Shown here piece after piece: positions 8,841 to 40,075 of a DNA stretch of 64,000 bases. The stretch spans positions 1 to 64,000 of the forward strand of contig NZ_AKIV01000043.1 in NCBI RefSeq assembly GCF_000282655.1, in the 5' to 3' direction. Within the stretch, counting starts at the first letter, position 1, and each line of letters opens with the position of its first letter. The notes under the pieces were generated by a model. The model worked only from the letters and a program-made list of their open reading frames with translations, was not told the origin of the DNA and searched no databases. The position numbers and the translations under genes were made by a program. This DNA comes from Polaromonas sp. CF318 (GTDB lineage: Bacteria; Pseudomonadota; Gammaproteobacteria; Burkholderiales; Burkholderiaceae_C).

Positions 8841-8868
8841 TTGCGGCCAAGGGCGGCATCGATATACT
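8841..8868 (+). promoter_or_regulatory. imuA promoter
   Basis: TTGCGG at 8841-8846 and TATACT at 8863-8868 are separated by 16 bases and form a plausible sigma-70 promoter. The LexA box overlaps the -10 element, the expected geometry for repression. Confidence 0.6.
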
Positions 8869-8884
8869 GTACATAAATACAGTA
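8865..8884. promoter_or_regulatory. LexA operator (SOS box)
   Basis: The core CTGTACATAAATACAG (8867-8882) matches CTGT-N8-ACAG perfectly and the dyad extends to TACTG...CAGTA. It overlaps the -10 element of the imuA promoter and lies 27 bases before the imuA start codon. This is the known control arrangement of imuA-imuB-dnaE2 cassettes. Confidence 0.92.
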
Positions 8885-8908: not shown

Positions 8909-9733
8909 ATGCTTTCGCCAACCTCCGCAGCCCGCGCCTTGCCGGACTTCGCCAATGCCCATATCTGGCGCGCCGGCGAGTTGGGCGGCGCGAGTGTGCA
9001 GACCGTCGCCACGGGCTATGCGGGGCTGGACGCCGTGCTGCCCGGCGGCGGCTGGCCGCGGGGGGCCTTGATCGAGCTTTTGCAGCCCCAGGCCGGCGTG
9101 CATGAATGGGGCCTGGTGGCGCCGGCCCTGGCGGCCTTGCAGGCGCAGGCCCGCGAATTGACGGTGCTGGTGGGCGCGCCCTGGCTGCCATTCGGCCCGG
9201 CGCTGGGCGCGCGATCCCTGGACATGCGGCGCCTGCTCAGCATCGAAGGGCAGCCCGGCGATGCGCCCTCGCTGCTGTGGGCGACGCGCGAGGCCCTGCA
9301 ATGCGCCGACGTGCACAGCGTGCTGGCCTGGTTGCCCGATGCGCGCAGTGCGCACCTGCGCCGCCTGCAGATCGCCGCCCATGCGCACCACAAGCTGCTG
9401 TTTGTGTTCCGGCCGCTGCGGGCGCAGCAGGAATCCTCGCCCGCGCCGCTGCGTTTGCGGCTGGAGGGCGCGGCCCAGGAGGCGGGCACGCTGCGGGTCG
9501 ATGTCTTCAAGCGGCGCGGCCCGCCGCTGGCCGCGCCGCTGCTGCTGGACACCCGGCCGGCCCGTCTGGCCGCGCTGCTGGCGGCCAGCCGTGAAAGGGT
9601 GTGGCGCCAGCGCGAAGAAGCCGGTATCCCGGTGCCGCTGCTGCTGCCGTCGCGGGTGGCGCTTCCCCTCAACTCACCCGAGAGCCCCATCCATGCGTTG
9701 CTGGATCGCATTGCGCATCTCGACCACCACTGA
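8909..9733 (+). CDS. imuA: Translesion synthesis protein ImuA (RecA-like)
   Basis: This 274-residue RecA-fold protein is the first gene of the SOS mutasome. The segment GLDAVLPGGGWPRGALIELL aligns with the start of the RecA ATPase core, but no intact Walker A (GxxxxGKT) follows, as is usual for ImuA/SulA-like proteins. In established models ImuA works with ImuB and DnaE2 in damage-induced mutagenesis. LexA control is explicit in the sequence (8865-8884). The end overlaps imuB by 41 bases. Confidence 0.92.
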   Translation: MLSPTSAARALPDFANAHIWRAGELGGASVQTVATGYAGLDAVLPGGGWPRGALIELLQPQAGVHEWGLVAPALAALQAQARELTVLVGAPWLPFGPALGARSLDMRRLLSIEGQPGDAPSLLWATREALQCADVHSVLAWLPDARSAHLRRLQIAAHAHHKLLFVFRPLRAQQESSPAPLRLRLEGAAQEAGTLRVDVFKRRGPPLAAPLLLDTRPARLAALLAASRERVWRQREEAGIPVPLLLPSRVALPLNSPESPIHALLDRIAHLDHH

Positions 9734-34652: not shown

Positions 34653-36941
34653 ATGAAATTCCGCTTTCCCATCGTCATCATTGACGAAGATTTCCGTTCC
34701 GAAAACACCTCCGGCCTGGGTATTCGCGCGCTGGCGCAGGCCATCGAGAGCGAAGGCTTCGAGGTGCTGGGCGTCACCAGTTACGGCGACCTCTCGCAGT
34801 TCGCCCAGCAGCAAAGCCGGGCCAGCGCCTTTATCCTGTCGATCGACGATGAGGAGTTCTCACCGGGCCCCGACCTCGATCCCGCCGTGCTGAACCTGCG
34901 CACCTTCATCGAGGAGGTGCGCCGCAAGAACCTGGACGTGCCGATTTACGTCTATGGCGAGACCAAGACCTCGCGCCACATCCCCAACGACATCCTGCGC
35001 GAGCTGCACGGCTTCATCCACATGTTCGAGGACACGCCCGAGTTCGTCGCGCGCCACATCCTGCGCGAGGCCAAGAGCTACCTGGAAGGCGTGCAGCCGC
35101 CGTTTTTCAAGGCTTTGCTGGACTACGCCGAGGACGGCTCCTATTCCTGGCACTGTCCCGGCCATTCCGGCGGCGTGGCTTTTCTCAAAAGCCCGGTCGG
35201 GCAGATGTTCCACCAGTTTTTCGGCGAGAACATGCTGCGCGCCGACGTCTGCAACGCGGTGGAGGAACTCGGCCAGTTGCTGGACCACGACGGCGCGATA
35301 GGCGCCAGCGAGCGCAATGCGGCGCGCATTTTCAACGCCGACCACTGCTTCTTCGTGACCAACGGCACTTCCACCAGCAACAAGATGGTCTGGCACCACA
35401 CGGTGGCGCCCGGCGACGTGGTGGTGGTCGACCGCAACTGCCACAAGTCCATCCTGCACTCCATCATCATGACCGGGGCAATCCCGGTGTTCCTGAAGCC
35501 GACGCGCAACCATTTCGGCATCATCGGCCCGATTCCGCAGAGCGAATTCGAGCCGGACGCCATCCGCGCCAAGATAGACGCCAACCCGTTGCTCAAGGGC
35601 GTGGACAGCAGCAAGGTCAGGCCGCGTGTGCTGACGCTGACGCAGTCGACCTATGACGGCGTGCTCTACAACACCGAAACCATCAAGGGCATGCTGGACG
35701 GCTACATCGACAACCTGCACTTTGACGAAGCCTGGCTGCCGCACGCCGCCTTCCACCCCTTCTACGGCGCTTACCACGCCATGGGCAAAAACCGCGTCCG
35801 GCCGAAAAATGCCGTGGTGTACGCCACGCAGTCCATCCACAAGCTGCTCGCCGGCATCAGCCAGGCCAGCCACGTGCTGGTGCAGGACTCGCAGGACGTG
35901 AAGCTCGACAGGCACCTCTTCAATGAGGCCTACCTGATGCACACCTCCACCTCGCCGCAGTACAGCATCATCGCCAGCTGCGATGTGGCCGCGGCCATGA
36001 TGGAGCCACCCGGCGGCACCGCGCTGGTCGAGGAGAGCATCGCCGAATCACTGGACTTTCGCCGCGCCATGCGCAAGATCGACGAAGAGTACGGCGACGA
36101 CTGGTGGTTCAAGGTCTGGGGGCCGGACAAGCTGGTCGAAGAGGGCATAGGCGAGGCCCAGGACTGGATCATCAAGGGCGAATCCCGCAGCGCCAAGATG
36201 GCGAAAAACGGCGCCAACAACTGGCACGGCTTCGGCCAGATGGCCACCGGCTTCAACATGCTGGACCCGATCAAGTCCACCATCGTCACGCCCGGCCTGG
36301 ACCTGAACGGCAAGTTCGCCAAAACCGGCATCCCGGCCAGCATCGTGACCAAGTTCCTGGCCGAACACGGCGTGATCGTCGAAAAAACCGGCCTCTACAG
36401 CTTCTTCATCATGTTCACCATCGGCATCACCAAGGGCCGCTGGAACACGCTGCTGACGGCGCTGCAGCAGTTCAAGGACGACTACGACAAGAACCAGCCG
36501 ATGTGGCGCATCCTGCCCGAGTTCTGCCAGAAGTACCCCAAGTACGAGCGCATGGGCCTGGCCGACCTGTGCCAGCACATCCACACCTTGTACGCCAAGT
36601 ACGACATCGCGCGGCTGACGACCGAGGTCTACCTGAGTGACCTGGCACCCGCCATGAAGCCCAGCGACGCCTATGCCCACATCGCCCACCGTACGACGGA
36701 GCGCGTCGAGATCGACCAGCTGGAAGGCCGCATCACCGTGGGCCTGGTGACGCCTTACCCGCCAGGTATCCCGCTCTTGATTCCGGGTGAGGTGTTCAAC
36801 AAGCGCATCGTGGACTACCTGAAGTTCTCGCGCGAATTCAACGCGCAGTGCCCGGGTTTCGAGACCGACATCCACGGCCTGGTGGAAGAGGTTGATGCCA
36901 AGGGCAAGACCCGTTATTACGCCGACTGCGTCAAGAAGTAG
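34653..36941 (+). CDS. Arginine/lysine/ornithine decarboxylase
   Basis: This 762-residue PLP enzyme of the fold-I acid-inducible family has the N-terminal wing domain (FPIVIIDEDFRSENTSGLGI), the PLP site with K397 in ATQSIHKLLAGISQ, the SWHCPGHSGG segment and the C-terminal domain (TPYPPGIPLLIPGE). The length is closest to biodegradative arginine decarboxylase AdiA (755), but substrate choice between arginine, lysine and ornithine is not decided by eye. The enzyme makes the corresponding polyamine precursor and consumes protons. No antiporter gene is next to it, so a biosynthetic role is at least as likely as acid resistance. Confidence 0.92.
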   Translation: MKFRFPIVIIDEDFRSENTSGLGIRALAQAIESEGFEVLGVTSYGDLSQFAQQQSRASAFILSIDDEEFSPGPDLDPAVLNLRTFIEEVRRKNLDVPIYVYGETKTSRHIPNDILRELHGFIHMFEDTPEFVARHILREAKSYLEGVQPPFFKALLDYAEDGSYSWHCPGHSGGVAFLKSPVGQMFHQFFGENMLRADVCNAVEELGQLLDHDGAIGASERNAARIFNADHCFFVTNGTSTSNKMVWHHTVAPGDVVVVDRNCHKSILHSIIMTGAIPVFLKPTRNHFGIIGPIPQSEFEPDAIRAKIDANPLLKGVDSSKVRPRVLTLTQSTYDGVLYNTETIKGMLDGYIDNLHFDEAWLPHAAFHPFYGAYHAMGKNRVRPKNAVVYATQSIHKLLAGISQASHVLVQDSQDVKLDRHLFNEAYLMHTSTSPQYSIIASCDVAAAMMEPPGGTALVEESIAESLDFRRAMRKIDEEYGDDWWFKVWGPDKLVEEGIGEAQDWIIKGESRSAKMAKNGANNWHGFGQMATGFNMLDPIKSTIVTPGLDLNGKFAKTGIPASIVTKFLAEHGVIVEKTGLYSFFIMFTIGITKGRWNTLLTALQQFKDDYDKNQPMWRILPEFCQKYPKYERMGLADLCQHIHTLYAKYDIARLTTEVYLSDLAPAMKPSDAYAHIAHRTTERVEIDQLEGRITVGLVTPYPPGIPLLIPGEVFNKRIVDYLKFSREFNAQCPGFETDIHGLVEEVDAKGKTRYYADCVKK

Positions 36942-36986
36942 GCCCAAGCCGGCCCGGGCGCGCGGACGACGCCTGCCCCGGCTGCC

Positions 36987-37928
36987 TTAAACGGCGGCGT
37001 CCCGCACCCGCATGAAACTGGCAAAGCGCGGAATGCCGCTGTCGTTCAGGCCGCGGAAACGGTAGCTCACGGTGCTGCCCACGGGCGGCGGGTTCTGGCG
37101 CAGCTCGTCGCTCAGGCCGCTGCCCAGCTTGAAGCGACGGCCGGGCTTGCCGTCGGCGGCCGGCATCTCCACCAGCAGCGCGCCCACCATGCCCGCATAT
37201 TTGCCCTGGCCTGGAATGTGCGCCACCACGCGGGCTTCGTCGTCTTCGTGCGGCTTGGCCTTGAGCAGGTCGTCGCTGCGCTGGCCCCTGTAAAGCGAGG
37301 CCCCGCGGTGCAGCATCAGGCCTTCGCCGCCGTGCTTGACGGTGGTGGCCAACAAAGCCTGCAGGGCCGCATGGCTGGCGACCTTGGATTGGGCCACGGC
37401 CTGTACCCAGGGCTGGTCGATGCGGCTCACCACGCCGTTCAGGGCCGGGATGCGCTCGTTGAAGCGGCCGCCCTGCGTGGGCAGGTCGAACACCATGAAG
37501 CGCATGGCCCGCCAGGCCGCCGGATCGGGGCTTTGCTGGCGCACCGTGGACATCGCGCGGGCGAACTGCCCGTGGCCCGCCCACAATTCGCCGTCCAGCG
37601 GCACCTTGGGCCAGCCCGCCGTGAACCAGGCCGGCGCCGCGATGCGTTCCCCGTTGCGCGTCAGCAGCTTTTCGCCGTCCCAGTAGCCGCGTATGCCGTC
37701 GTATTTTTCGCTGACCCAGTAGTCGGCCAGGGGGATGCCCGGGCGGTAGGCTTTGGCCAGCATGAGCTGCGGCGCCTCGGGAGCAGTCGCGGCGGCAAAG
37801 GCCGGGCCGGACAGGGTGGGCGTGAGCAGGCCTGCGACGACCAGCAGCAACTGGAGGGCTTTAAGGCGAAAAACCGCCGTGGAGGTTGAAATGTGGGAGG
37901 TGGGTGTTTGTGCTGGGTGCGGTGCCAT
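36987..37928 (-). CDS. Secreted ATP-dependent DNA ligase, Lig E type
   Basis: This is a 313-residue protein. Residues 20-47 form a signal peptide (LKALQLLLVVAGLL, then GPAFAAA as probable cleavage site). The nucleotidyltransferase motif I is SEKYDGIRGYWDG with the adenylated lysine at K75. Motif III-like LDGELW, motif IV-like HGGEGLMLH and motif V-like DDLLKAKP follow, and the small OB domain ends with PRFASFMRVRD. No additional domains occur, matching the minimal periplasmic Lig E group. A perfect CTGT-N8-ACAG box lies 17 bases before the start, suggesting SOS control (inference). The ribosome-binding site is weak. Confidence 0.88.
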   Translation of the reverse strand: MAPHPAQTPTSHISTSTAVFRLKALQLLLVVAGLLTPTLSGPAFAAATAPEAPQLMLAKAYRPGIPLADYWVSEKYDGIRGYWDGEKLLTRNGERIAAPAWFTAGWPKVPLDGELWAGHGQFARAMSTVRQQSPDPAAWRAMRFMVFDLPTQGGRFNERIPALNGVVSRIDQPWVQAVAQSKVASHAALQALLATTVKHGGEGLMLHRGASLYRGQRSDDLLKAKPHEDDEARVVAHIPGQGKYAGMVGALLVEMPAADGKPGRRFKLGSGLSDELRQNPPPVGSTVSYRFRGLNDSGIPRFASFMRVRDAAV

Positions 37929-37945
37929 GTTTCTTTGACTTTTGG

Positions 37946-37961
37946 CTGTATGAATGTACAG
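37946..37961. promoter_or_regulatory. Candidate LexA operator before the Lig E gene
   Basis: CTGTATGAATGTACAG matches CTGT-N8-ACAG in all eight fixed positions, like the imuA box. It sits in the 142-base divergent gap, 17 bases before the ligase start codon. On the minus strand a promoter-like TTGCCG (37983-37988) and TAGACT, 17 bases apart, overlap it. An 8-base fixed match occurs about once by chance in a window of this size, so position is the main support. Confidence 0.62.
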
Positions 37962-38070
37962 TCTATAGTCCCGTGCCGGGCGCGGCAAGCGTTGCTCCAG
38001 GAAACTGTCGAGGGCGCGCCACATGCGCCTGGTTCCCCCGCAAATCATTGAGAAAAAAGGATGCAAAAAC

Positions 38071-38418
38071 ATGACCCACCAAGGAAGCTGCCACTGCGGA
38101 AGGATTGCCTTTGAGGTCGAGGGCGAGCCCGCCAGCGCGCTGGCCTGCAACTGCTCCATGTGCTCGCGCAAGGGCTCGCTGCTCTGGTTTGTTCCGCGCG
38201 AGCAGTTGCGCCTGCTCACGCCCGACGAGAACGCCAGTACCTATCTGTTCAACAAGCACCTCATCCAGCACCGGTTTTGCCCCACCTGCGGCATCCACCC
38301 CTATGGCGAAGGCACGGGCCCGGACGGCAAGCGCATGGCCGCCATCAACCTGCGCTGCGTGCAGGATCTGGACCTCGCCGCCATCCCCGTCCAGCATTTC
38401 AACGGGCGGGCTGCATGA
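38071..38418 (+). CDS. GFA (CENP-V/GFA) family protein
   Basis: This is a 115-residue zinc protein of the glutathione-dependent formaldehyde-activating family fold: QGSCHCGRIAFEVEG at the N-terminus, CNCSMCSRKGSL in the centre and FCPTCGIHPYGEG near the C-terminus supply the conserved cysteines. Most such proteins have no proven activity. The start at 38071 has AAAAAAGG about ten bases upstream. The stop overlaps the GNAT gene by four bases. It is divergent from the ligase gene. Confidence 0.92.
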   Translation: MTHQGSCHCGRIAFEVEGEPASALACNCSMCSRKGSLLWFVPREQLRLLTPDENASTYLFNKHLIQHRFCPTCGIHPYGEGTGPDGKRMAAINLRCVQDLDLAAIPVQHFNGRAA

Positions 38419-39155
38419 CCCCCAGCGATATCGAATCCATAGAGCGGGCCACCCTGGCCGCGGTGTCTCCCGAAGCCGTCGAGGAATTCCAGGGCTGGCT
38501 GCTGCCTTTTGACGGTGGCACGGTCAGCCGGGCCCACAGCGCCGTGCCGCTGCGCCATGTGCCGGCGGGCGTGGGCATGGTCGAGCAGATAGAAGCGCGC
38601 TACCGGGCGCGCGGCCTGCGCACGGTGTTCCGTCTGGCCAATGAGGGCTGCTTCGACGGCCTGCGGCAGGAACTGGCGCGGCGCGGCTACCAATCGGGAA
38701 AGCCGGTGCTGGTTCAGGTGGCGCCGGTGCAGGCCATGCGCGCGGCCAGTGCGGCAGCGCCGGCCGAAACCGCCGATGTGCCCGATGCGGCCTGGGCCGC
38801 GCTGTTCCTGGCCGAAGGTTTTGACCCGGTAGACGGCGCGAGCCGCGTCAAGGCCTTGAGCCGCGCCCGCGGTTCGGTCTATGCCAGCGTGCGCGAAAAC
38901 GGCAAAACCGTGGCGGCGGGCGCCGGCGCCTTCAGCCATGGCTGGTCCAGCGTGCACGGCATGCGCACCGACCAGGCCTGCAGGGGCAGGGGACTGGCCG
39001 GGCGCGTGCTGGCCGGCATCGCCGCCGTGGCCGAACAGCGCGGCATCGCGCGGGCTTTTTTGCAGGTGGAAGACGTCAATGCCCCGGCGCTGGCGCTGTA
39101 CCGGCGCGCGGGTTTTGAGACCGTCTGGAGTTACGACTACTGGCGGCAACCGTAG
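38415..39155 (+). CDS. GNAT family N-acetyltransferase
   Basis: This is a 246-residue protein with the acetyl-CoA-binding segment in its C-terminal half (MRTDQACRGRGLAGRVLAGI) and the late ALALYRRAGFETVWSYDYW, both standard for GNAT enzymes. The N-terminal half resembles a second, degenerate GNAT-like domain. The substrate is unknown. It is coupled to the GFA gene through an ATGA overlap. Confidence 0.88.
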   Translation: MTPSDIESIERATLAAVSPEAVEEFQGWLLPFDGGTVSRAHSAVPLRHVPAGVGMVEQIEARYRARGLRTVFRLANEGCFDGLRQELARRGYQSGKPVLVQVAPVQAMRAASAAAPAETADVPDAAWAALFLAEGFDPVDGASRVKALSRARGSVYASVRENGKTVAAGAGAFSHGWSSVHGMRTDQACRGRGLAGRVLAGIAAVAEQRGIARAFLQVEDVNAPALALYRRAGFETVWSYDYWRQP

Positions 39156-39169
39156 GTGGCTGCCCAGGC

Positions 39170-39979
39170 TCAGGCCGCTTCGGCCGGCTCGGCGATGCCG
39201 CCCACGACGTGGCTGAAACCGCCGTCGACATAAGTGATCTCGGCGCTCACGCCGCCGGCCAGGTCGCTCAGCAGGAAAGCCGCCACATTGCCCACGTCCT
39301 CGATCGTCACGTTGCGGCGAATCGGGGAGGCTTCGGCGACCACGCTCAGAATCTTGCCGAAGCCCTTGATGCCGCTGGCGGCCAGGGTCTTGATGGGGCC
39401 GGCGCTGATGCCGTTAACGCGCATGCCCTTGGGGCCCAGCGATTCGGCCAGGTAGCGTACCGAGGCTTCCAGGCTGGCCTTGGCCAGGCCCATGGTGTTG
39501 TAGTTGGGCACGGTGCGCACTGCGCCCAGGTAGGTCAGCGTGAGCAGCGCCGATTTCGGGTTCAGGTAGGGCAGGGCCGCCTTGGCCATGGCCGGAAAGC
39601 TGTAGGCGCTGATGTCGTGGGCGATCTTGAAGCCCTCGCGCGACAGGCCGTCGAGGAAGTCGCCGGCAATCGCCTCGCGCGGCGCATAGCCTATGCTGTG
39701 CACAAAGCCGTCAAACGTCGGCCATGTCTGGGACAGGTCGGAAAACAGCTTGGCAATCTGCGCGTCGTCGCCCACGTCGCAGTCAAAAATCAGTTTCGAA
39801 TCGAAATCGGCGGCGAATTCCGTGATGCGGTCCTTGAAACGCTCCCCGACGTAGCTGAAGGCCAGTTCGGCGCCCTGGGCGTGGCAGGCCTTGGCGATGC
39901 CGTAGGCGATGGAGCGGTTGGACAGCACGCCCGTGATCAACAGTTTTTTGCCAGTGAGGAATCCGGTGTGTGTCGCCAT
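39170..39979 (-). CDS. fabI: Enoyl-ACP reductase FabI
   Basis: This is a 269-residue short-chain dehydrogenase-type enzyme that reduces trans-2-enoyl-ACP with NADH in fatty acid elongation. It shows the atypical cofactor motif [19 protein letters not shown], the catalytic [12 protein letters not shown] (Tyr and Lys of YX6K) and [15 protein letters not shown], all of FabI type. It is the target class of triclosan. The start at 39979 is divergent from yejA with 96 bases between; fabI beside yejABEF is a familiar order in Burkholderiales. Confidence 0.96.
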
Positions 39980-40075
39980 GCAGGTGCTCCAGTAAATGTG
40001 CGGAAGATATGCCGGCAAGGGGCGCGAGATTCGCGCGCCGGAAATTTGCCGACCTAAGTAGGGCAGAATTGTCGC

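Follow-up and report, generated by a model that had tools for sequence, protein, structure and literature searches.

A putative LexA box over the promoter of ligE, the gene for a predicted exported DNA ligase, in one group of Polaromonas species

The ligE locus and its product

The stretch of DNA analysed here (hereinafter the window) comprises 64,000 nucleotides from Polaromonas sp. CF318. Among its genes is ligE, whose product is, judging by its sequence, a Lig E-type DNA ligase (Table 1). Two domains were detected in it at a Pfam E-value of 0.001, DNA_ligase_A_M (PF01068) and DNA_ligase_OB_2 (PF14743), with no third family at that threshold, and this pair is the one that defines Lig E (PMC8455567, accessible part). 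The NCBIfam equivalog NF006592 scores 374.5 bits (cut-off 200), and in the PDB the protein best matches 4d05 (E 2e-70) and 6gdr (8.6e-69). Counted on the alignment to 4d05, the lysine of the KYDG motif is K75, and two further nucleotidyltransferase motifs, EGLMLH and LLKAK, align with the same structure. These matches bear out the sequence-only reading of this DNA, which had recognised a Lig E-type ligase with a minimal nucleotidyltransferase plus OB layout and K75-Y-D-G. Before the first domain, inspection by eye reveals a charged segment, a core of hydrophobic residues and an AFA-A site, which together resemble a Sec leader. The Lig E of strain JS666 is 93% identical to that of the window.

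Table 1. Features of the window discussed in the text (positions count from the first letter of the window)
Feature	Position	Strand	Basis and remarks
Second candidate LexA box of the window	8867..8882	.	upstream of imuA; internal positive control
imuA	8909..9733	plus	NF033429, 198.6 bits against a cut-off of 150
ligE	36987..37928	minus	313 aa; PF01068 + PF14743, NF006592, PDB alignment, leader read by eye
Possible divergent promoter TTGACT-16-TACAGT toward GFA-GNAT	37935..37962	plus	promoter scan, 9/12; shares the box
Candidate LexA box CTGTACATTCATACAG (minus-strand reading)	37946..37961	.	exact CTGT-N8-ACAG; 17 nt upstream of the ligE ATG
Putative ligE -10, TAGACT	37960..37965	minus	overlaps the box; TAnACT in 7/7 box-bearing genomes
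Alternative putative ligE -10, TATAGA	37962..37967	minus	
Putative ligE -35, TTGCCG	37983..37988	minus	17 nt from TAGACT
GFA-family gene	38071..38418	plus	divergent neighbour, possible second target; family scan from 38074
GNAT-like acetyltransferase gene	38415..39155	plus	overlaps the GFA stop; named by eye, no family call

The order fabI, ligE, Orn/Lys/Arg decarboxylase (34653-39982 in the window) is widespread among the named loci of the Comamonadaceae. In 56 of the 80 loci of this named set, fabI lies directly upstream of ligE and codirectional with it, the two protein matches being separated by -3 to 344 nt, and the decarboxylase gene is usually found on the far side of ligE from fabI. 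Some Polaromonas have a GNAT gene, or GFA and GNAT genes, inserted between fabI and ligE.

A candidate LexA box over the ligE promoter

The sequence-only reading had drawn attention to a perfect CTGT-N8-ACAG dyad upstream of ligE, and both the exact match and its spacing from the start codon were confirmed. It had further placed the dyad over a plausible minus-strand promoter. The hexamers are plausible and, as described below, conserved, but by hand count TTGCCG-17-TAGACT agrees with the consensus in just 8/12 positions, under the threshold of 9 of the promoter scanner, which did not list it. What the scanner reported across the dyad were two plus-strand promoters, the one given in Table 1 and TTGGCT-16-TATAGT.

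A single match of this kind is weak against chance, as had been cautioned at the outset, and shuffled sequence agrees: it yields about one exact CTGT-N8-ACAG per 116 kb, or a mean of 0.55 per 64 kb, against two in the window, and 10 of 100 shuffles reach at least two. In the whole genome (5.0 Mb), 24 exact dyads stand against 7 for the reversed control, and the stricter form CTGTAY-N4-RTACAG occurs 7 times against 0 reversed controls, the ligE site being among the 7. The other dyad of the window lies 26 nt upstream of imuA, a classical LexA target and textbook SOS gene.

Conservation of the box and the history of the locus

Conservation was examined at three levels, namely the genus, the named set and the class. 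Of 87 Polaromonas genomes, 71 had a match to the Lig E protein; five with only long ORFs, presumed LigD (G001, G033, G042, G059 and G060), and two with fragments (G058 and G084) were left out, and about 300 nt upstream of ligE were scanned at 65 loci in the remaining 64 genomes. Four second copies (L173-L176, of L107, L114, L108 and L111, respectively) were counted once, and at L112 about 242 nt were readable. The exact dyad precedes ligE at seven of the 65 loci (G000, G061, G031, G016, G063, G020 and G006), and an eighth (G036, which is L029 of the named set) has seven of the eight box bases. The other 57, including L119, which is without readable upstream DNA, show neither the exact nor the 7-of-8 dyad within this distance.

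The least similar of the seven box-bearing loci has a Lig E protein identity of 71%, and the DNA around the box has drifted: 12 of the 16 box columns are identical throughout, whereas among 45 columns on either side only 4 upstream and 1 downstream are. In six of the seven genomes the TTG of the ligE -35 hexamer stands 27 nt before the box, in G006 28 nt before it, and TAnA directly precedes the box in all seven, which gives the arrangement TTGnnn-17-TAnACT (18 in G006) with the -10 hexamer entering the box. In six genomes the nearest in-frame ATG follows the box at 17, 17, 17, 18, 51 and 145 nt, and in G020 about 114 nt separate the box from the sole in-frame start. As this distance varies, the box goes with the promoter rather than with the coding region.

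Beyond this group the picture changes. In the named set, the exact dyad occurs within 350 nt of ligE at five of 80 loci, four of them Polaromonas with the strict form and the fifth L087, whose dyad has a GC-rich centre and stands 9 nt ahead of where the protein match begins; the remaining 75 are without an exact dyad in this range, and at L029, L069, L096 and L099 the best site has 7/8 bases. At the class level 59 of 370 genomes were matched, some only to long ligases presumed to be LigD, and the 29 loci scanned besides that of the window include one exact dyad (L232, GC-rich in its centre, with the aligned start 136 nt further on) and three 7/8 sites (L240, L241 and L245). We take isolated matches outside the Polaromonas group, such as L087 and L232, to be probable chance occurrences. 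LexA control as a general trait of Lig E is rejected by these counts, the exact dyad being missing at 75 of 80 named and 57 of 65 genus loci. Since most ligE loci are without it, LexA control would not be needed for Lig E function in general, and it does not appear to be general in the Comamonadaceae. The earlier reading, that LexA controls ligE, is supported by a conserved box and an SOS motif, within one Polaromonas group.

A tree of Lig E (73 rows, by a quick method with SH-aLRT support only; L094, with only 49 aa readable, omitted) unites five box-bearing Lig E in a single clade with an SH-aLRT of 96. The sequence-only reading had named absence of the dyad from close orthologues as a finding that would speak against it; this refuting case did not arise, as all five members of the window's clade have the exact dyad. 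The other two box-bearing loci fall in the sister group. Of its eight rows, one more is the 7-of-8 locus and five are box-less. The distribution of the box on this tree needs three changes, and a single clade of box loci was not rejected in a test on the quick tree from which ten long-branch rows were excluded (p-AU 0.305, or 0.389 with the 7-of-8 locus included).

The box may have originated when ligE became separated from fabI. In the named set an insert between these two genes is present at three of the four box loci. A tie between the box and this insertion was nevertheless set aside as only a trend, with six insert-bearing loci of the same set (L032, L034, L037, L042, L045 and L050) being without a box.

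The SOS motif in Polaromonas genomes

The seven box-bearing genomes together contain 41 sites of the strict form CTGTAY-N4-RTACAG, against 0 reversed controls. Twenty-two of these adjoin SOS or repair genes, seven adjoin ligE and 12 lie elsewhere; as the genomes were chosen for having the ligE box, its presence in 7/7 is not independent evidence. By adjoining gene, the SOS and repair sites are found at imuA in six of the seven genomes, parE in six, a PA0069-family radical SAM gene in five, a putative repair gene of TIGR03915 in four and lexA in one (G020). The 12 remaining sites comprise one at the start of an integron integrase, five at a conserved small ORF and six others. Family models were run on the window-genome copies of imuA, the radical SAM, TIGR03915 and integrase genes and on a 60-aa ParE start; the remaining gene copies beside strict sites were recognised by near-identical starts. 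In G006, just two strict sites occur genome-wide, at imuA and ligE. Nine Polaromonas genomes without the ligE box have 20 strict sites against 0 controls, none of them at ligE as judged by contig and position. Weaker sites accompany the core genes of the response in the window genome, where two 7-of-8 boxes, CTGGATATTAAAACAG and CTGGATGAAAATACAG, precede lexA and one, CTGTGATTAAAAGCAG, precedes recA.

Several of the genes beside strict boxes merit separate mention. At parE, which encodes topoisomerase IV subunit B, the strict box stands 47 nt before the ATG in six of the seven genomes (L014, L193, L200, L201, L207 and L215). In five of the seven, a conserved ORF of 74-104 aa with the signature WPFYVQAxRP...VNAxRVLETxARYFF has a strict box at its start or close to it (G000:C47:1339, which is L012, and L196, L203, L211 and L212); its window-genome copy has no Pfam match, and it is a candidate small SOS protein. 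Another small ORF, of 76-80 aa with CAERLH and LEEVA motifs, lies beside strict boxes at L212 (G063:C8) and L206 (G061:C8), with two boxes in G061; the G063 copy likewise has no Pfam match. The integron integrase start (G000:C12:14938, L008, ORF 1525-1974 on the minus strand) has a strict box 12 nt before its likely ATG and matches NF011946 with 169.9 bits, below the cut-off of 435; the ORF has 149 aa where the model has 337 positions, and the gene may be truncated. Finally, a 365-aa ORF at L208 (G061:C15:527279), which on visual inspection resembles an acyltransferase-3 membrane protein, has a strict box 21 nt upstream.

LexA control of ligE and what it would serve

Taken together, the fixed place of the box in a conserved promoter and its shared form with the SOS sites of the same genomes make it very probable that ligE is under LexA (SOS) control in one group of Polaromonas species. 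Counting against such control are the better-scoring plus-strand promoter over the box, the 12 strict sites away from ligE and from recognised SOS or repair genes, and the N. gonorrhoeae survival data given below. A LexA dimer at the box would cover the -10 hexamer and the start of the ligE promoter, and thereby shut it. Upon DNA damage, RecA loaded on single-stranded DNA would trigger the self-cleavage of LexA, and the ligE promoter would open. LexA binding and induction of ligE, as well as the nick-sealing activity of its product, we infer from the known families. Lig E would then be exported via its Sec-like leader and, with ATP found there, seal nicked double-stranded DNA either in the periplasm or beyond the cell. 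Candidate substrates are DNA under uptake and DNA freed by damaged or dying kin; a ComEC-type competence domain is encoded in the genome. Export, the substrate, the source of ATP outside the cytoplasm and the benefit to the cell we only infer. The conserved box and the predicted export together suggest that sealing of DNA beyond the cytoplasm is turned on by DNA damage. A wider proposal, somewhat less likely than not, is that the SOS response of these bacteria reaches outside the cytoplasm by means of an exported ligase; by mending nicked double-stranded DNA in the periplasm or surroundings, it would leave DNA from damaged kin sufficiently intact to be taken up as a repair template or to serve in the biofilm.

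LexA control could also be real with the ligase acting on the chromosome in the cytoplasm, its leader being unused or part of the protein being retained, such that Lig E would take part in ordinary SOS repair. The other recognised LexA targets, by their known families, work on chromosomal DNA, and the Lig E of N. gonorrhoeae has been proposed to meet chromosomal DNA broken under nalidixic acid (PMC10799422, accessible part). We nonetheless regard a cytoplasmic role as unlikely. The leader-like stretch is retained, although its sequence drifts, in the six box-bearing species examined for it (all but G020), and among 208 canonical Lig E representatives from bacteria, 144 have a predicted leader (PMC8455567, in the portion open to us). 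Moreover, in N. gonorrhoeae deletion of Lig E leaves survival of UV and peroxide unchanged, raises survival of nalidixic acid and reduces biofilm (PMC10799422, same portion), phenotypes which argue against a plain chromosome-repair role. Uptake of DNA and biofilm DNA are the roles that have been suggested for the enzyme (PMC10799422 and PMC8455567, as far as their accessible parts go).

A different objection concerns the gene that the box serves. It may sit between two overlapping divergent promoters, and it could be that it mainly serves the GFA-GNAT pair, with ligE a mere neighbour or a minor second target. The plus-strand promoter toward this pair outscores that of ligE; its TTGACT is retained at the equivalent place in five of the seven genomes (G000, G061, G016, G063 and G006), with TTGCCA in G020; and GFA starts 109 nt from the box, with GNAT overlapping the end of GFA. 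In five of the seven box-bearing genomes ligE is indeed adjoined by GFA and GNAT in the opposite direction. However, G020 has neither, its upstream neighbour being fabI, codirectional with ligE, so that there is no divergent gene to serve; G031 is without GFA, with the start of GNAT about 370 nt away; the 7-of-8 box of G036 is adjoined by a codirectional ORF; and in G004 GFA and GNAT are present and the box is absent. As the two genomes without GFA keep the box, ligE emerges as its constant partner, and the TTG of the ligE -35 hexamer is present in all seven, shifted by one base in G006. A box chiefly for the divergent pair is hence improbable in our view.

That LexA is the regulator in question is favoured by the company the box keeps. 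The identity of a dyad-binding protein cannot come from sequence alone, and a repressor other than LexA, for example one of the phage-type S24 or XRE kind, might use the dyad; against this, the same strict motif stands at imuA, parE, lexA (G020) and the radical SAM gene in box-bearing genomes, and the lexA model has one match in the window genome, the product of which aligns with E. coli-type LexA in its DNA-binding domain (GFKSANAAEEHL versus GFRSPNAAEEHL of 7ocj). On this alignment it is a canonical LexA with an E. coli-type DNA-binding helix, and we give another repressor very little credence. Least credible of all is a chance match, which the background of about 0.55 exact dyads per 64 kb and the chance-like L087 and L232 would allow, and which the conservation test rejects: at seven loci with diverged flanks the dyad keeps the same place relative to the conserved promoter hexamers, and its strict motif is found 41 times against 0 in controls.

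The enzyme and the regulator are both known, and what appears to be new is the link between LexA and Lig E, confined to one species group. The biological role of Lig E has been described as not known, and its gene neighbourhood gave no partners (PMC8455567, accessible part). Membership in the LexA regulon is a clue of the sort lacking until now, in that it would tie a predicted exported ligase to DNA damage, and the link is directly testable in environmental species. If export holds true, this would be, in our own judgement, an unusual instance in which DNA repair chemistry beyond the cytoplasm is under SOS control.

Relation to known systems

In the open-access literature, surveyed by titles and the opening of abstracts, we found no description of LexA control of Lig E. 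The accessible text of one Lig E paper contains neither SOS nor LexA (PMC10799422), and that of another does not contain SOS (PMC8455567). The window genome also encodes, elsewhere, a long ligase-like ORF (an 892 aa frame, E 5.6e-5), presumed to be LigD. LigD, of NHEJ, and LigC, of base excision repair, are like Lig E accessory ATP-dependent ligases, and they are not known to have a leader. Unlike Lig E, they act in intracellular repair with partner enzymes (PMC8455567, in the part available).

Regulation offers further points of comparison. Competence regulation of Lig E in Haemophilus was considered as a parallel and dropped: the CRP-S genes include a ligA, which is tabulated as the NAD-dependent ligase in the accessible part of PMC5809987. 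The closer comparison is with the LexA regulon of the Betaproteobacteria (lexA, recA, imuA-imuB-dnaE2 and splB; PMC3323433, seen in part), which shares with the ligE locus a CTGT-N8-ACAG box near or over the promoter. The window genome likewise has boxes at imuA, lexA, recA and the radical SAM gene. The ligE product differs from that regulon in being predicted to be exported, and the main text of that survey, to the extent accessible, has no word beginning with "ligase" (PMC3323433). With the known Lig E, periplasmic minimal ATP-dependent ligases of Proteobacteria (PDB 4d05 and 6gdr), the ligE product of the window has in common the PF01068 and PF14743 domains, the KYDG motif and a start that by eye looks leader-like, and its gene differs in the conserved candidate LexA box over the promoter.
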